This document shows, in pieces, positions 12,189 to 25,487 of a stretch of DNA of 64,000 nt (within the stretch, counting starts at the first letter, position 1; each line of letters opens with the position of its first letter). The DNA is from Rubrobacter tropicus (GTDB taxonomy: Bacteria; Actinomycetota; Rubrobacteria; Rubrobacterales; Rubrobacteraceae). Location: positions 1,240,001-1,304,000 of the forward strand of contig NZ_CP045119.1 in NCBI RefSeq assembly GCF_011492945.1, in the 5' to 3' direction. A model generated the notes under the pieces. The model was not told where the DNA came from, made no database searches, and saw only the letters and a program-made list of their open reading frames with translations. Position numbers and translations under genes: made by a program.

Positions 12189-13106
12189 GTGAGGTGCGGG
12201 CGAGGGCTTGGGGCCCTGTTCGTAGGCGTGGTGTTCGGGACGTTGGCCGTCTTACCGGCAGGCTGCGGCTTCGGGGGGCAGGGGCAGATCACGCTCGGTT
12301 ACCTGCTCTGGGACGAGAACGTGGCGAACTCTTACCTGATCCGGGTCCTACTCGAGGACGAGTTCGGCTACGAGAACGTGGAGCTCCAGCGGTCCGAGAA
12401 GGTGCCCGACGTCTTCGACGCCGTGGCCGAGGGAGAGACGGACGTCTTTATGGACGCCTGGATGCCCAACCACCGGCAGTTCGTGGACGAGGCCGGGGAC
12501 AAGGTCGAGGTCTACCGGGAGCCCTGGTACGAGGGGAAGACCGTCTTCGGGGTCGCCGTCCCGAACTACATGGAGGGGATAGAGACCATAGGGGATCTCA
12601 AGTCCTCCGAACCGGGCATGATCACCGGCATAGAGCCGGGCGCAACGCTTATGGAGAAGATCGGCCAGAACGCCGTCCCGCAGTACGACCTCGACTACAG
12701 CCTCGTGGAGGCGAGCACCCCCGCGATGCTCCTCGAACTCCAGAAGGCTTACTCCATGCGCGAACCTTTCGTGTTCGTCGCCTGGTCCCCGCACTGGATG
12801 AACCTCGAGTACGACTTCCGCTACCTGAAGGACCCCAAGAACGCCCTCGGCACCGCGGACGACCCCCAGACCCTCCACACCGTGGCCCGCAAGGGTTTCG
12901 CCGAGGACGACCCCGTGGCCCACGCCCTCATCAGCGAGATGAGGTTGGATTCCACCCAGGTGGGTTCCCTGGAGGTGGCGATCAACCAGGCCGTGGACGA
13001 GGAGAGGGAGATCGACGCCGGCGTGCGCGACTGGCTCGAGGAGTCTGAGAACCGATCCGCGGTGCAGCCCTGGATCGACGCGGCCCGCCAGGCAGAGAGA
13101 GGATAG
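12189..13106 (+). CDS. Glycine betaine/choline-type substrate-binding lipoprotein (OpuAC family)
   Basis: The mature protein matches OpuAC/ProX-type periplasmic binding domains: ITLGYLLWDENVANSYLIRVL, FDAVAEGETDVFMDAWMPNH, GMITGIEPGATLMEKI and FVFVAWSPHWM. A signal peptide with lipobox LPAGC lies about 26 residues after GTG 12189, which I chose as start; an upstream ATG at 11967 would add an implausible 74-residue extension. No ABC ATPase or permease gene adjoins; instead a nucleotidyltransferase, phosphoesterase and APC permease follow. It may serve a distant transporter, or work with the permease as a sensor. Confidence 0.82.
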   Translation: MRCGRGLGALFVGVVFGTLAVLPAGCGFGGQGQITLGYLLWDENVANSYLIRVLLEDEFGYENVELQRSEKVPDVFDAVAEGETDVFMDAWMPNHRQFVDEAGDKVEVYREPWYEGKTVFGVAVPNYMEGIETIGDLKSSEPGMITGIEPGATLMEKIGQNAVPQYDLDYSLVEASTPAMLLELQKAYSMREPFVFVAWSPHWMNLEYDFRYLKDPKNALGTADDPQTLHTVARKGFAEDDPVAHALISEMRLDSTQVGSLEVAINQAVDEEREIDAGVRDWLEESENRSAVQPWIDAARQAERG

Positions 13107-13113
13107 GAGAAGG

Positions 13114-13881
13114 ATGCAAGACACGAACAGACGCCTGCCCGACGTGGTCGAGGAGGCAAGGCGCGTGTCCTCGACCGCGGACGAGCGGGGCGTTGCCCTG
13201 CGCCTCCTCGGCGGCGTGGCCGTCAACGTCCGCGCGCGGGACGGCCTCGAACCCGCCTTCAGGCGAGAGTACGCGGACATGGACTTCATAACCCCGAAAG
13301 GGCGCTCCGCCGAGGCACAGAAGTTCTTCGAGTCCGAGGGATACACGCCCCAGACGCGCTTCAACACGCTCTACGGCAGCGAGCGGTTGCTGTTCTTCGA
13401 CGAGAACCACGACAGGCAGGTGGATATCCTGGTCGGTACCTTCAGGATGTGCCACGAGATCCCCATCGGCAGGCGCCTGGACCTCGAACCCATGACGATC
13501 CCGCTCGCCGAGCTGCTCCTTACGAAGCTCCAGATAATAGAGCTCAACGAGAAAGATGTCCGGGACGCCCTGGCGATCCTGCACAACCACCCGGTAGAGG
13601 AGTCGGACGGCGACGCCGTGAACGCCGCCCGCGTGGCCGAGCTTTGCGCCTCCGACTGGGGCCTGTGGCGCACCTTCACGGCCAACCTGGAAGACCTGAG
13701 AAGCCACCTCGACCGCTACGACCTCGACGACGAGGGCAAGGAGCGCATCGACCGGGGCGTCGAGAAGCTGCGGGGGCGCGTAGAAGAGGAGCCCAAACCG
13801 TTCGCGTGGAGAGTGCGGGCGAAGATCGGGGACAGAAAACGTTGGTACGACCTGCCGGAAGAAGTAGAGGGGGGACCATGA
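13114..13881 (+). CDS. Nucleotidyltransferase-fold protein
   Basis: The 255-residue protein has the polymerase-beta-type nucleotidyltransferase pattern: LRLLGGVAVNVRA (GG motif), then ADMDFI (D-x-D metal ligands) and RQVDILVG (third Asp), followed by the helical segment LAELLLTKLQIIELNEKDVRDALAIL that resembles AbiEii-like families. The start ATG has AGGAGAAGG in front. The stop overlaps the ATG of the next gene (ATGA). The catalytic triad appears complete. Substrate unknown; an antitoxin partner, as in AbiE systems, is absent. Confidence 0.7.
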   Translation: MQDTNRRLPDVVEEARRVSSTADERGVALRLLGGVAVNVRARDGLEPAFRREYADMDFITPKGRSAEAQKFFESEGYTPQTRFNTLYGSERLLFFDENHDRQVDILVGTFRMCHEIPIGRRLDLEPMTIPLAELLLTKLQIIELNEKDVRDALAILHNHPVEESDGDAVNAARVAELCASDWGLWRTFTANLEDLRSHLDRYDLDDEGKERIDRGVEKLRGRVEEEPKPFAWRVRAKIGDRKRWYDLPEEVEGGP

Positions 13882-14852
13882 TCTCAAGGCTGTTTTCGAG
13901 GGGACCGGACACCAGGATCTTCTTCGCCACGGACATCCACGGCTCGGAGACTTGCTGGAAGAAGTTTCTGAACTCGGGCAAACACTACGAGGCTAAGGTC
14001 ATAGTCCTCGGCGGCGACATGACGGGAAAAGCGCTCGTCCCGATAGTCGAGGCGGGGAAGGGCAACTGGCACGCCACGCTGCTTGAGAACCGCCGGGACT
14101 TCACGACCGAGGACGAGGTGAAGGAGTTCGAGGATTCCGTGAGGCGGCGCGGCTACTACCCGTTCCGCACGACGCCGGACGAGATGGCCGAGCTCGAATC
14201 CGACGAGAAGCTGCGCGACAAGTACTTCCACGAGGAGATGCTCGGCACCGTCGAGCGCTGGATGCGGATGGCCGAGGAGAAGCTCGCGGGCACCGGCATA
14301 GAGTGCTACGTCAGCCCCGGCAACGACGACCAGTTCGAGGTCGACGAGATAATCGCGAACGCCAGGGGCGTCCACCTCGCCGAGGGCCGGGTCGTCGAGT
14401 TCGGGAACTTCCAGATGGTCTCGACCGGCTGGGCCAACCGGACCCCGTGGGACACCTACAGGGAGGAGGACGAGCCTGACCTGAAAAAGAGGCTCGACGA
14501 GATGACCTCGCAGGTGACGGCGCCGCCCGAGCAGACCGTCTACAACTTCCACTGCCCGCCGCACCAGTCGGGCCTCGACGACGCGCCGGAGATCACGGCC
14601 GACATGCGCCCCAAGGACGCGGGTCGCTCGACCATGCCCGTCGGCTCGACCGCGGTCAGGGAGGCGATAGAGGAGGGGCAGCCGGCGCTCGCTTTGCACG
14701 GGCACATCCACGAGGCGCGGGGGAATACCAGGATCGGAAGAACTTTGTGCATCAACCCGGGGAGCTCCTACGAGCAGGGGCAGCTTCTCGGGGCCGTCGT
14801 CGACCTGGACGGCGGCAAGAAGGTCAAGCGGTTCGTACTCACCAGCGGATAG
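13878..14852 (+). CDS. Calcineurin-like metallophosphoesterase
   Basis: Metal-ligand motifs of the family are present in order: FFATDIHGSE (D-x-H), VIVLGGDMTG (GD), SPGNDDQ (GND, in place of GNH), FHCPPHQ and LHGHIHEARG (GHxH). The 324-residue product is long for a simple phosphodiesterase. Replacement of the usual GNH by GND is a notable change of an active-site His. The gene is coupled by ATGA to the nucleotidyltransferase, suggesting a make-and-break pair acting on the same nucleotide or modified group; this is inference. Confidence 0.82.
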   Translation: MISRLFSRGPDTRIFFATDIHGSETCWKKFLNSGKHYEAKVIVLGGDMTGKALVPIVEAGKGNWHATLLENRRDFTTEDEVKEFEDSVRRRGYYPFRTTPDEMAELESDEKLRDKYFHEEMLGTVERWMRMAEEKLAGTGIECYVSPGNDDQFEVDEIIANARGVHLAEGRVVEFGNFQMVSTGWANRTPWDTYREEDEPDLKKRLDEMTSQVTAPPEQTVYNFHCPPHQSGLDDAPEITADMRPKDAGRSTMPVGSTAVREAIEEGQPALALHGHIHEARGNTRIGRTLCINPGSSYEQGQLLGAVVDLDGGKKVKRFVLTSG

Positions 14853-14864
14853 AGGAGTAGATAA

Positions 14865-16475
14865 ATGGCCAGCAACGCGACGGCGGGTTCCAGTACGGGG
14901 GACCTGTTCCAGAGAAAGGCGACGGGGCTCTTGCGCGGGTGGTCCGTGTGGGACGCGTTCATCTACGCGACGTTCTCGATCAACCTGATCACGCTGGGGC
15001 TCTTCATCCTCTCCTACGCGCCCTTCGTCCCCGAGGGGGCGCTGATTCCGGCCATAATACTTGCCGGGCTGTACCTGATCTTCCAGGCCGTCACCTACGC
15101 CGCCCTTATCGCCGTGATGCCGAGGGCCGGCGGCGACTACGTCTGGATGAGCCGGATACTGGGGGGCGGGATAGGCTTCGTGCTGGCGGTCACGGGGTGG
15201 TGGTTTATCCTGTGGCACTGGGTGCCGATCTACGCGGACATCCTGGTAAAAGAGGTCTTCGTGCCCCTCGCCGCGATTTTGGGTTTCGACGGGCTCGTTG
15301 CCTTCTTCGGCGAGTCGGCCGGCGTCTTTACCGCCTCGGTGATCGTGGCCTTCATGGCCTCGGCCCTGATCTCGCTCGGGATGCGCTCCTACGCCCGCGT
15401 GCAGAAGTTCTGCTTCTACGGCGGCCTGGTCGGCCTCGCCATCATGCTGGTAATCCTTCTCGTCAGCTCGCGTGCCGACTTCGTCTCGGCCTTTAACGCC
15501 GAGGCCAGCAGCATGCTCGGCGCCGGCTCCAACGCCTACCAGCAGACGGTCCAGGCCGGTCAGCAGGCGGGAGGCCTCCCGACGGACTCGGCGGTCTTCC
15601 CGACGCTGCTCCTGATCCCCTTCCTCGCCTTCTTCAACCTTTTCTCGAACTGGGGCGCGACGCTCTACGGTGAGGTCCGCGGCGCATCCGACTTCCGCAA
15701 GAACATCTACGCCATGGCCGGGGCGCTGGTGGTCACCTCCGTGACCGCCGTCCTGATGCTCCTCCTGTTCGCCAAAACCTTCGGCTGGGACTTCTACTAC
15801 GGCGCCAACGCCGCCTTCTGGGCCGGCGAGGGCCCGATCTCCGCGTGGCCCTACCCGGCCCTTCTCGTCTCCTTCCTTCTCGGCAACCCGGTGCTCCAGG
15901 TCATCCTGATAGCCCTGATGTCCCTGTGGTTCTTCGGCTGGGTCGGGACGGTCTTCATGTCCTCGACGCGCGTCGTCTTCGCGACGGCCTTCGACCGGGT
16001 GCTCCCGGAGGCGGTCGCCAAAACGACCCGCAGCGGCGTGCCCTGGGTGGCGCTCCTGCTCATGCTCATACCTTCGATCCCGATCAGCTACTTCTACGCC
16101 TACGGGGAGAACTTCGCCACCTGGACGTTGAACGCCACCCTCGTCATCGCCCTTACGTTCTTCGGCTCGACGGTGGCGGCGGCCATACTCCCGTGGCGCA
16201 AGCCCGAGATCTACAACGCCTCGCCCATAGCCCGCTACAACGTCCTCGGCATACCCCTGATCACGGTGGCCGCCACCGCCTTTGGCCTCTTCCTGGCCTT
16301 CTGCCTCTACCAATGGGTTACGAACGACGTCTACGGCATCAACAACCCGTCCTCGTTCCTCTACCTGAGCACCATGTACGTCCTCGCCCTCGTGATCTAC
16401 GTCGTCTCCCGCTTCGTCCGCCGCGCCCAGGGTATGGACCTGAAGATGGTCTACGACGAGATACCGGAGGATTAG
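14865..16475 (+). CDS. APC-superfamily amino acid/polyamine permease
   Basis: This 536-residue protein has about twelve to fourteen hydrophobic segments and the APC-type motifs AVMPRAGGDYVWMSRILGG in helix 3 and RVVFATAFDRVLPEAVAK before a later loop. An extracellular loop near residues 200-245 is rich in Ala, Gln and Gly. It follows the metallophosphoesterase by 12 bp with GAGGAG nearby and closes the operon that starts at 12189. The stop runs directly into short AGCTCTC repeats and a strong hairpin. Confidence 0.88.
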   Translation: MASNATAGSSTGDLFQRKATGLLRGWSVWDAFIYATFSINLITLGLFILSYAPFVPEGALIPAIILAGLYLIFQAVTYAALIAVMPRAGGDYVWMSRILGGGIGFVLAVTGWWFILWHWVPIYADILVKEVFVPLAAILGFDGLVAFFGESAGVFTASVIVAFMASALISLGMRSYARVQKFCFYGGLVGLAIMLVILLVSSRADFVSAFNAEASSMLGAGSNAYQQTVQAGQQAGGLPTDSAVFPTLLLIPFLAFFNLFSNWGATLYGEVRGASDFRKNIYAMAGALVVTSVTAVLMLLLFAKTFGWDFYYGANAAFWAGEGPISAWPYPALLVSFLLGNPVLQVILIALMSLWFFGWVGTVFMSSTRVVFATAFDRVLPEAVAKTTRSGVPWVALLLMLIPSIPISYFYAYGENFATWTLNATLVIALTFFGSTVAAAILPWRKPEIYNASPIARYNVLGIPLITVAATAFGLFLAFCLYQWVTNDVYGINNPSSFLYLSTMYVLALVIYVVSRFVRRAQGMDLKMVYDEIPED

Positions 16476-16508: not shown

Positions 16509-16535
16509 GGGCCCGGCGCTTGAGGCGCCGGGCCC
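16509..16535. terminator. Terminator hairpin after the permease operon
   Basis: GGGCCCGGCGC and GCGCCGGGCCC form a perfect 11-bp stem around TTGAG, 33 bp after the permease stop. No T run follows. Confidence 0.65.
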
Positions 16536-16878: not shown

Positions 16879-18314
16879 ATGGATCGACCGAACGTCGTGG
16901 TGATCGTGGCGGACACGTTCCGGCGGGACCACATCGGGGCCTACGGGAACCCGTACATCAAGACCCCTTACCTGGACACTTTTGCCCGCCAGTCGGCGGT
17001 CTTCGACCACCACGTGGTGTCGTCTTTCCCGACCATGCCGGCGCGGGCCGACATCCTTACCGGGACTTTTTCGTACACCCACATGGGCTGGGAGCCCTTG
17101 CCCGGGCGCCTGACGACCCTGCCCGAGGTCATGTCGAGGGCCGGCTACGCGACGATGGGGGTCGTCGACACGCCCTTCTACATAAGGAACGGCTTCGGCT
17201 ACGACAGGGGCTTCGACGACTTCATCTGGGTCAGGGGCCAGGGCGACGACACCAGGCCCAGGAGCGCTCCGACGCCCGCTCGACGTGGACCAGGGAAGAG
17301 GACAGGCTCGTGGCCCGCACCATGACCGAGGCCGAGAGGTGGCTGGAGCGCCACCGCGACGACGGGCCCTTCTTTCTGTACGTCGACACCTGGGACCCGC
17401 ACGAGCCCTGGGACGCCCCCGACTACTACACCGAGCAGTATAGGAAGGGTTACGACGGGCGGCAGGTCTACCCGGCCTACGGCGACTGGCGGGAGGCCGG
17501 CCTCACCGAGGACGACGTGGGGCTGGCGCACGCGACGTACTGCGGGGAGGTGACGATGGTGGACTTCTGGATCGGGAGGTTCCTGGGCAAGCTCGACGCC
17601 CTGAACCTCACGGACGACACCATAGTCGTCTTCACCTCAGACCACGGCTTCTACTTCGGCGAGCACGGCTACTTCGGCAAGGCAGAGTGGGTCCACGAGC
17701 CCGAAGCGGTTGTTTCGGAGAACTCCAACCTTCCGGCGTGGCTCTCGGAGTCGTGGCTCTTGACCGTGCAGTGGTCGCCCCTGTACAACGAGATCAGCCG
17801 CATCCCACTCATAGCCCGCGGCCCGGGCCTCACCCCGGGCCGCCGCCAGGCGATGACGACGGCCCCGGACATAGCGCCGACCATTCTGGACCTGACGGGC
17901 CTCGGCAGCCCCATGACCATGAAAGGCGAGTCCTTCGGCGGCGTGCTCACCGGGCAGAAAGACGAGCACAGGCCTTTCGTCGTGAGCTCGTGGCCGCTTT
18001 ACATGGCGGAGGGTGAGATCACGACCGCCGTGGACTCCACGCCCCGCAAGGTCGCGAGCTACATGCCCTTCACCGTAACCACGCGCGACCGCTCCGCCAT
18101 CCTCGGAGGCCCCAACGACCAGCCCGAGCTCTACGACCTCCGTACGGACCCCAAGGAGACCAACAACGTCTGGCGCAGCCGCCCCGGCGAGGGTGAATCG
18201 CTCTGCGAAGACGCCATTGGCTTTCTAGAAGGCCAGGGGACCCCCGAGGAGCACCTGACCCCCCGCCGCGAGGCGCTCGACGGCTGGCGCAACCCGGTCG
18301 AGATGACCGGCTGA
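16879..18314 (+). pseudogene. Sulfatase/alkaline-phosphatase-superfamily hydrolase, one frameshift
   Basis: The N-terminal frame (from ATG 16879 behind GGAGGAAGAG) reads MDRPNVVVIVADTFRRDHIG, a metal-binding start typical of sulfatases, and runs to about 17256. From about 17259 the protein continues in another frame with ERSDARSTWTREEDRLVART, and includes the metal site VVFTSDHGFYFGEHGYFGK. Adding one C to the CCC at 17257-17259 restores a single frame of about 478 residues. The nucleophile position reads T-M-P-A-R instead of C/S-x-P-S/A-R, so no formylglycine could form; a Thr nucleophile, as in phosphodiesterases of the superfamily, is more likely. A true pseudogene or a sequencing error are both possible. 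Confidence 0.75.
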
Positions 18315-24104: not shown

Positions 24105-25487
24105 CTACCCGGAGATGAGGTCCTTCAACCGGTCCCGGACGGCCTTGATCGGGATGCGCTCCTGCTTTAGCGTGTCGCGGTCCCGGATGGTTACCTGCTT
24201 GTCCTCGATGGTGTCGAAGTCGACGGTAACGCAGAAGGGGGTGCCCGCCTCGTCCTGGCGGCGGTAGCGGCGTCCGATGGAGCCCGAGTCGTCGTAGAAC
24301 AGGCGGTAGTCGCCCTTGAGGTCGTCGTAGAGCTCGCGGGCTATGGTCGAGACGGGCTGCTTCTTGGAGAGCGGGAAGACGGCGGCCTTGGTCGGGGCGA
24401 TGCGGGGGTGGAGCTTCAGGACCGTGCGCTCCTCGCCGTTTACCTCCTCCTCCGTGTAGGCGTCCATGAGGAAGGCGAGCATGATGCGGTCCGGGCCGAC
24501 GGCCGGCTCTATGACGTAGGGGTAGTAGCGGTTGTTCGTGGTCTGGTCTATGTACTCCAGGTTCTCGCCGGAGTGCTCGGCGTGCTGTTTGAGGTCGTAG
24601 TCCGTGCGGTTGGCCACACCTTCCAGCTCCGACCATCCGGCGAACGGGTAGTTGTACTCGATGTCGACGGTGCGCTTGGAGTAGTGGGAGAGCTTCTCCT
24701 TCGGGTGCTCGTAGCGGCGGAGGTTCTCCTCCCTGATGCCGAGGTTCAGGTACCAGTTCCAGCGCTCCTCGATCCAGTACTCGTGCCACTCCTCGTCCGT
24801 GCCGGGCTCGACGAAGAACTCCATCTCCATCTGCTCGAACTCGCGGGTGCGGAAGATAAAGTTGCCTGGCGTGATCTCGTTCCGAAAAGACTTGCCCTGC
24901 TGCGCGATCCCGAACGGTACCTTTACCCGGCTCGTCTGGGTGACGTTCTTGAAGTTGACGAAGATCCCCTGCGCCGTCTCGGGCCTGAGATAAGCCAGGT
25001 TCTCATCGCTCTTGACCGGCCCCATGTAAGTCTCGAACATGAGGTTGAAGGGCCGCACCGGCGCGAAGTCCCGTCCGCCGTCGACGGGATCCTTGACCCT
25101 GTCGTCTTCCTGGATGATCTTGGTGAGCTCCTCCGGGCTCAGCCCTTCGGCGTCGATGCCGGTCGCGTCCTCTATTAGGTGGTCCGCCCTGTAGCGGCGC
25201 TTGCTGGTGCGGCTCTCGACGAGCATGTCGTTGAAGGTCGCCGTGTGCCCCGAGGCCTCCCACACCTTCGGGTGCATGATGATCGCCGCGTCCAGCCCAA
25301 CCACGTCGTCCCGCATGTGGACCGTGCTTCGCCACCACTCTTCCTTGATGTTCCGCTTCATCTCGACACCGAGCGGCCCGTAGTCGTAGGAAGACCTCAG
25401 ACCGCCGTAGATCTCCGAGCTCTGATACACAAAGCCCCTGCGCTTGCAGAAGGCGACCATCTTCTCCATCGTCACGGCCTGCGACAT
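24105..25487 (-). CDS. glyS: Glycyl-tRNA synthetase (alpha-dimer type)
   Basis: A class II synthetase of 460 residues that charges tRNA-Gly. It opens with [23 protein letters not shown], contains [14 protein letters not shown] and [20 protein letters not shown], motif 2 near [23 protein letters not shown] (quoted in parts: [17 protein letters not shown]), and the C-terminal anticodon-binding domain with [18 protein letters not shown]. This is the single-chain dimeric GlyRS, not the alpha2beta2 form. ATG 25487 follows GGAGGAT. The gene has an ordinary length for the type. Confidence 0.96.

Follow-up and report, generated by a model that had tools for sequence, protein, structure and literature searches.

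A 64,000-nucleotide stretch of Rubrobacter tropicus DNA (contig NZ_CP045119.1, positions 1,240,001 to 1,304,000; hereafter the window, to which coordinates without a prefix refer) carries a four-gene operon whose last three genes form a conserved module that recurs across hundreds of bacteria plus one archaeon. These genes encode a polymerase-beta-type nucleotidyltransferase of an unnamed family (NT, 13114-13881), a calcineurin-like metallophosphoesterase (PDE, 13878-14852) and an APC-superfamily permease (APC, 14865-16475). They are preceded by the gene for an OpuAC-type glycine betaine/choline substrate-binding lipoprotein (12189-13106, GTG start), and all four lie head to tail on the + strand. 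Both enzymes retain complete active-site residues and the folds of their superfamilies, the permeases belong to a single clade with a private C-terminal tail, and the catabolic neighbourhoods of the module are variable. At slightly under even probability, we favour the reading that NT and PDE work as a reversible nucleotidyl switch reserved for this transporter subfamily, and that the tail provides the docking site.

The four genes are tightly packed, with successive intergenic distances of 7, -4 and 12 bp, and the ATG of PDE at 13878 overlaps the stop codon of NT, which ends at 13881 (shared ATGA). A first-pass annotation of the window had described this packing and overlap and had named the four families, and on all of these points it holds. 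OpuAC (PF04069, E 1.7e-52) and APC (PF13520) pass the curated Pfam cut-offs; NT and PDE fall below those of Pfam and NCBIfam and were assigned from conserved catalytic and metal-site residues and from AlphaFold folds.

The trio stays together across phyla

Gene calls in relatives were made in the present analysis, and many of the relatives are metagenome-assembled genomes (MAGs). Among 39 genomes of the window's class, NT was found in 20, PDE in 21 and a module-type APC in 22, nearly always adjacent. Class genomes without NT and PDE are generally also without a module-type APC, one of the 22 APC genomes having neither enzyme. Because it is kept in about half of these genomes and across phyla, the NT-PDE-APC arrangement is not a product of chance. 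In Actinomycetota, 47 of 396 genomes have PDE, 45 have NT and 44 have both (Fisher p 1e-53), and the corresponding figures for 400 Chloroflexota genomes are 82, 87 and 81 (Fisher p 2e-76), although genomes within a phylum are kin and these p-values overstate independence. NT and PDE copy numbers also correlate (rho 0.68). A stronger argument than the p-values is the agreement of the two phyla together with the shuffling of gene order: among the orders seen, PDE-APC-NT accounts for 44 modules, NT-PDE-APC for 43 and APC-PDE-NT for 7. That the trio stays together despite its lineage-specific order argues for selection for the trio.

A scan of GTDB contigs gave 309 PDE-encoding places. Where PDE had 3.5 kb or more of flanking DNA on both sides, an APC gene lay no more than 4.5 kb from PDE in every case (76/76 loci), and NT lay within that distance in 66 of the 76. 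The locus also held an APC for 32 of 33 PDE in 40 extra loci that were picked for paralogues and exceptions. Among 72,556 plasmids scanned, full-length PDE together with APC was found only in Halobellus limi and Thermomicrobium roseum. The latter plasmid has the order APC-PDE; that of the archaeon H. limi (NZ_CP031312.1, 398 kb; L342) holds IclR, iron-containing alcohol dehydrogenase, aldehyde dehydrogenase, PDE, NT and APC genes together, its NT being annotated 'hypothetical protein'. The neighbourhood is not specific to one strain, recurring as it does in two phyla and on a haloarchaeal plasmid, and its conserved core is NT, PDE and APC, with OpuAC as a lineage add-on. The first-pass annotation had paired the binding protein with the two enzymes. 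We rejected OpuAC as a core member, as it accompanies them only in the Rubrobacter lineage, where roughly half of the loci have it; their actual partner is the APC permease.

NT without PDE occurs as a broken gene in genome G680, on short contigs in G455 and G725, and with an extra N-terminal domain and a lost DxD in G609 and G677. These two extra-domain NTs (L293:6474-7646 and L294:6310-7482) lie away from PDE and APC, and their extra domain is roadblock-like by eye; they are possibly repurposed non-catalytic binders. An apparent NT fusion of 1437 aa (L306) proved to be an artefact of an antisense open frame, which also concealed an APC.

NT and PDE have complete active sites

Across 98 homologues, NT residues G33, D55, D57, D104, K138, K147, D148 and D151 are 98-100% conserved (98% for G33 and 100% for D55, D57 and D104), and further conserved positions are Q140, W182-G183 and R235. 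The AlphaFold model (pLDDT 93.5) has as its nearest PDB folds the MenAT1 complex (8an5, the top match), LnuA (4fo1) and ANT(2'')-Ia, which NT also matches by profile at E 0.08; a PDB sequence search with NT returned nothing. Members of the MenT family are usually described as tRNA-modifying. NT of the window scores 20.3 bits against PF14907 (NTP_transf_5; cut-off 31.2), and a weak match to this family is seen in 51 of 57 NT members. The G[GS] motif, DxD, third Asp and nucleotidyltransferase core fold place it in the polymerase-beta-type superfamily (LnuA/ANT/MenT-like). An incomplete active site would have undermined the first-pass proposal; all catalytic residues are present, in a confident polymerase-beta-type model.

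In PDE, residues D19, H21, D47, N149, D150, D151, H225, H274 and H276 are 95-100% conserved in 122 homologues. The first-pass annotation had singled out GND, where GNH is usual, as an anomaly. Since GND/GNDD is invariant in all 122, the alignment indicates that GNDD is the family's normal motif III and not a lesion, and we rejected a degenerate active site. The AlphaFold model (pLDDT 92) is nearest to aq_1956 (2yvt, E 7e-13), TT1561 (1uf3 among the fold matches) and MPPED2, and a PDB sequence search returned aq_1956 only. Scores lie below the curated cut-offs for PF12850 (25.6 bits against 27), PF14582 (23 against 28.2) and YfcE (25.8 against 117), the sub-threshold Pfam matches being to Metallophos_2/_3; YfcE-type models match 54 of 55 PDE members, weakly. 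Membership of the calcineurin-like metallophosphoesterase superfamily follows from the DxH, GD, GN, H and GHxH motifs together with the fold. PDE is also the most constant part of the operon, with a mean column identity of 86% versus 77-80% for the other parts.

The permeases of the module are a single clade marked by a private tail

The permease of the window belongs to the APC superfamily (PF13520, E 2e-11, about 43.7-43.8 bits against a cut-off of 27). The genome encodes nine further APCs, which score higher against this model (97-192 bits), and a PDB sequence search with the permease returned nothing. Partnered APCs were collected via NT and PDE, so the results describe what partnered APCs share. 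In a tree made by a quick method from 45 partnered APCs, without their last 22 residues, and 24 unpartnered APCs, all of the partnered sequences fell on one side of one branch (SH-aLRT 98). The permease of the window ends in GMDLKMVYDEIPED-COOH (16431-16472, + strand), a module-specific motif. Its consensus, G-[IV]-D-[LV]-x2-V-[YFHQ]-x-E-[IL]-P-x-[ED]-COOH, is carried by 140 of 143 partnered APCs, whereas 24 unpartnered APCs from those genomes all lack it, and it extends to the APCs of Halobellus (archaeal) and Thermomicrobium. Other partnered-only positions include R87, D91, Q180, G269, P443 and S453; the last, placed by inference in a cytoplasmic loop, is found in 90% of partnered versus 4% of unpartnered APCs.

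The enzymes are constant while the neighbouring pathways change

Many of the neighbour-gene names that follow were read from sequence, without a database match. In Rubrobacter the trio lies beside choline-to-betaine genes: type III (Fe) alcohol dehydrogenase, aldehyde dehydrogenase, IclR, sarcosine-oxidase/DMGDH-type enzymes and OpuA ABC genes. Other clusters contain agmatinase with acetylpolyamine amidohydrolase, a GmaS-like synthetase, MttB, hydantoinase/oxoprolinase-like and kynurenine-formamidase-like genes, urease, or sugar kinases with DeoR regulators. A choline-kinase-family gene is present in 19 of 141 annotated loci; such a gene (PF01633, choline/ethanolamine kinase family) adjoins APC in some Chloroflexota and in one Rubrobacter MAG (L217:10694-11593, L264:1046-1972). 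In many Anaerolineales (L180-L229) the nuo (complex I) operon is found directly downstream of the module, and genes for tryptophanase and tryptophan 2,3-dioxygenase are close to the module as well. Despite these changing neighbours, about 20 polar residues of NT and about 50 positions of PDE are near-invariant.

A reversible nucleotidyl switch is the favoured reading

Because the active sites are near-invariant while the neighbouring nutrient pathways change, the substrate of NT and PDE is likely to be constant. With the pathway varying around a fixed NT, PDE and permease type, the simplest constant target is the permease or something bound to it. That the permease is the target is an inference, and so are the choice of nucleotide, the direction of control and the part played by the tail. 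In the switch that we favour, the APC would import an amine or some related nutrient, the likeliest candidate in Rubrobacter and Halobellus being choline or a compound like it. NT would move a nucleotidyl group from a nucleoside triphosphate onto a residue on the cytoplasmic face of the transporter, or onto a component bound there, and PDE would take it off again. The conserved, cytoplasmic C-terminal tail would be the docking site for NT and/or PDE, and a private NT/PDE pair for each transporter paralogue would let uptake be set by nutritional state. In Rubrobacter the switch probably controls choline-type uptake. The switch is supported by the two fused NTs away from PDE and APC, which have lost DxD. 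It also has a functional precedent, since uridylylation of PII by GlnD gates the transporter AmtB (PMC6490700); the parallel is by analogy, as NT, PDE and APC lie outside that family. The first-pass annotation had suggested that a transferase/phosphoesterase couple controls osmolyte or amino acid uptake, through reversible nucleotidyl modification or a nucleotide signal. The idea of such control survives and gains strong comparative support, but the process would be amine or nutrient catabolism and not osmolyte uptake in particular.

Several observations weigh against this reading. A tail-bearing permease need not be partnered, as genome G018, an incomplete MAG, has one without NT or PDE. In G748, conversely, NT is intact and single; no PDE was detected there, and the vicinity of NT holds no APC. 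The fold relatives LnuA and ANT(2'') modify small molecules, and the NT fold does not predict a protein substrate. In some genomes a choline-kinase-family gene stands beside APC and NT, which also fits a metabolic role. No sensor that would instruct NT or PDE was identified. Furthermore, the tail has no invariant Tyr, Ser, Thr, His or Lys, position -7 being Y, F, H or Q. The tail tyrosine was rejected as the modified residue since it is not conserved, and with no invariant hydroxyl in the tail, covalent modification within it seems unlikely and docking there the likelier role.

Two other explanations, each improbable and to the same degree, fall behind the switch. One is that NT synthesises a small diffusible nucleotide, such as a nucleotidylated metabolite, which PDE breaks down and which gates the permease, perhaps via the tail. 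Control of APC-fold transporters by c-di-AMP is a precedent for such a signal, the active sites of NT and PDE are constant across modules, and the high column identity of PDE is as expected with a fixed small substrate. However, up to five paralogous modules in one genome of 2.3 Mb (G423, with five NT and five PDE) would cross-talk via a shared messenger, and the provision of one private pair per paralogue argues against such a messenger; NT is moreover an LnuA/ANT-type single-domain enzyme and no cyclase or CD-NTase. The other is that the compound brought in is itself the substrate of NT and PDE, as in a route of APC, choline kinase, NT (a CDP-choline-like activation) and PDE comparable to LicB-LicA-LicC. 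The PF01633 gene beside APC and NT in part of the Chloroflexota and in G018, the small-molecule nucleotidylation carried out by LnuA and ANT, and the position of the Rubrobacter and Halobellus modules within choline-to-betaine clusters all fit a metabolic role. Yet the same NT and PDE occur in agmatine, methylamine-type, hydantoin and sugar-kinase clusters, whose likely substrates may have no hydroxyl in common; most loci are without the kinase gene; and the recurrent neighbours included no recognisable LicD or CDP-alcohol transferase. The reversible switch is favoured over both.

A third alternative, strongly disfavoured and of very little probability, gives NT and PDE no part in transport but one in RNA repair, a toxin-antitoxin-like system or defence, with operon organisation carrying them along. 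In its favour, the NTase toxin system MenAT1 is the top fold match of NT, and PDE, alone among the parts, has a PADLOC match (PDC-S10, 1e-8), but this match is weak and covers 58 residues of the generic GHxH part, no phage copies of NT and no antitoxin-like partner were found, the neighbourhoods are metabolic, and linkage to one permease clade holds in two phyla and an archaeon under shuffled gene order, so that a defence, toxin-antitoxin or phage origin was rejected.

OpuAC is a lineage-specific accessory

The closest PDB relative of the window OpuAC is B. subtilis OpuAC (2b4l). The three prism Trp of 2b4l (W72, W178 and W225) align with Trp that are invariant among 19 OpuAC homologues. The PF04069 domain, this Trp prism and a lipoprotein signal (lipobox LPAGC near the N-terminus, with Pro at -3) place the protein in the OpuAC family. 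The first-pass annotation had remarked on the missing ABC ATPase and permease. This is correct locally, there being no OpuA ATPase or permease gene within the window operon, but the same genome holds an intact OpuA ATPase-permease-OpuAC set at C1:1,502,800-1,506,000, and in relatives the module-adjacent OpuAC copies still flank OpuA permease and ATPase genes (L056, L057, L063). The orphan is probably a second binding protein for the OpuA ABC transporter encoded elsewhere. That OpuA-type operon adjoins a second osmoprotectant-type ABC operon with an ATPase, two permeases and a binding protein (L263:5836-13139 = C1 1,502,835-1,510,138). What looked like an internal TAG in the genome's second OpuAC was dismissed, as the frame simply ends there and the protein is complete.

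In genome G022, an OpuAC 82% identical to that of the window is followed by an NT remnant consisting of the first 38 codons (L061:8266-9386). The remnant sits at the synteny of the window, with cobalamin genes upstream, and a complete module lies on another contig (L044). This arrangement suggests that modules relocate while OpuAC stays behind, and that G022 represents a relocated or decayed module.

The probable operon end and its neighbours

A strong hairpin follows APC at about 16509-16535 (+ strand; 12-bp stem; -40.3 kcal/mol over an 85-nt stretch, z -4.2), so the transcript probably stops there and the operon probably ends at this point; no long T run lies 3' of the hairpin. A tRNA-Arg gene lies upstream of the operon on the opposite strand. 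Downstream, a frameshifted gene of the sulfatase/alkaline-phosphatase superfamily (16879-18314, +) is a neighbour and no part of the core. It occupies two frames in the window, with the shift near 17255 within a run of C, and it adjoins the module in many Rubrobacter (cluster c10, 17 loci; PF00884 match in L055). In relatives the gene is in a single frame, and all 14 with a called frame covering the site have Thr at the nucleophile position (SFPTMPARADILTG), which points to a phosphodiesterase-like enzyme and away from a sulfatase. A glycyl-tRNA synthetase gene near the module (24105-25487, - strand) is kept as a neighbour in 18 Rubrobacter loci.

Significance and comparison with known systems

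A broader claim, which we hold somewhat more tentatively than the switch itself, is that the module represents an unrecognised class of bacterial and archaeal transporter regulation, in which each member of a tail-tagged APC subfamily has a private NT/PDE pair that would reversibly nucleotidylate the transporter or a tail-bound component, for chemically unrelated nutrients. Literature searches for the module, its families and the mechanism, with few subscription journals covered, turned up no description of the module, and current annotation hides the module under 'hypothetical protein', 'metallophosphoesterase' and 'APC family permease'. If the claim is true, nutrient transporters in Chloroflexota, Actinomycetota, Thermomicrobium and a haloarchaeon would share a widespread regulatory layer of direct nucleotidyl control, and the tail would be a sequence tag for recognising controlled transporters. 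If the metabolic explanation is right instead, the module would hold a new enzyme pair of choline and amine utilisation. NT and PDE represent two uncharacterised families of enzymes, which on the broader claim would act on one and the same testable substrate, and the module is present in cultured organisms (Rubrobacter taiwanensis, Conexibacter sp. S30A1, Thermomicrobium roseum and Halobellus limi).

Each part of the operon resembles a known system and departs from it. The window OpuAC shares its Trp prism with OpuA; the window operon differs in having no ATPase or permease of that system, and its OpuAC stands outside the conserved trio. PDE shares its fold and metal ligands with YfcE and Metallophos_2/_3 proteins (aq_1956, TT1561), and its motif III lacks His at the usual position, a trait also of some YfcE-type enzymes. 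In contrast to these families, PDE has 324 aa, a large helical insert (residues ~78-136), the invariant GNDD and a private genomic context. LnuA and ANT(2'')-Ia, the closest folds to NT, have in common with it the GG/GS-DxD-D active site, whereas NT is larger (255 aa), has a conserved C-terminal helical domain (W182-G183, K228, W232, R235 and RWY244-245) and stands beside PDE and APC in a chromosomal catabolic context. LicABC likewise combines a choline-type permease and a nucleotidyltransferase with a choline kinase, whose family is represented in some of our loci. However, NT is no LicC-type Rossmann pyrophosphorylase, LicD was not seen, and the module also occurs in non-choline clusters.

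The likeness to GlnD/PII (GlnK)-AmtB and to GlnE/glutamine synthetase, which we propose here by analogy, would lie in polymerase-beta-type transferase chemistry and in reversible nucleotidyl transfer that sets uptake or assimilation; GlnK itself controls a transporter (PMC6490700). The architecture of GlnE and GlnD is not shared, as searches of Pfam and NCBIfam found no PII, HD, ACT or second adenylyl-removing domain in NT or PDE. In place of such proteins, the module has a small NT and a separate calcineurin-like PDE, a private pair for each paralogue and an APC transporter.

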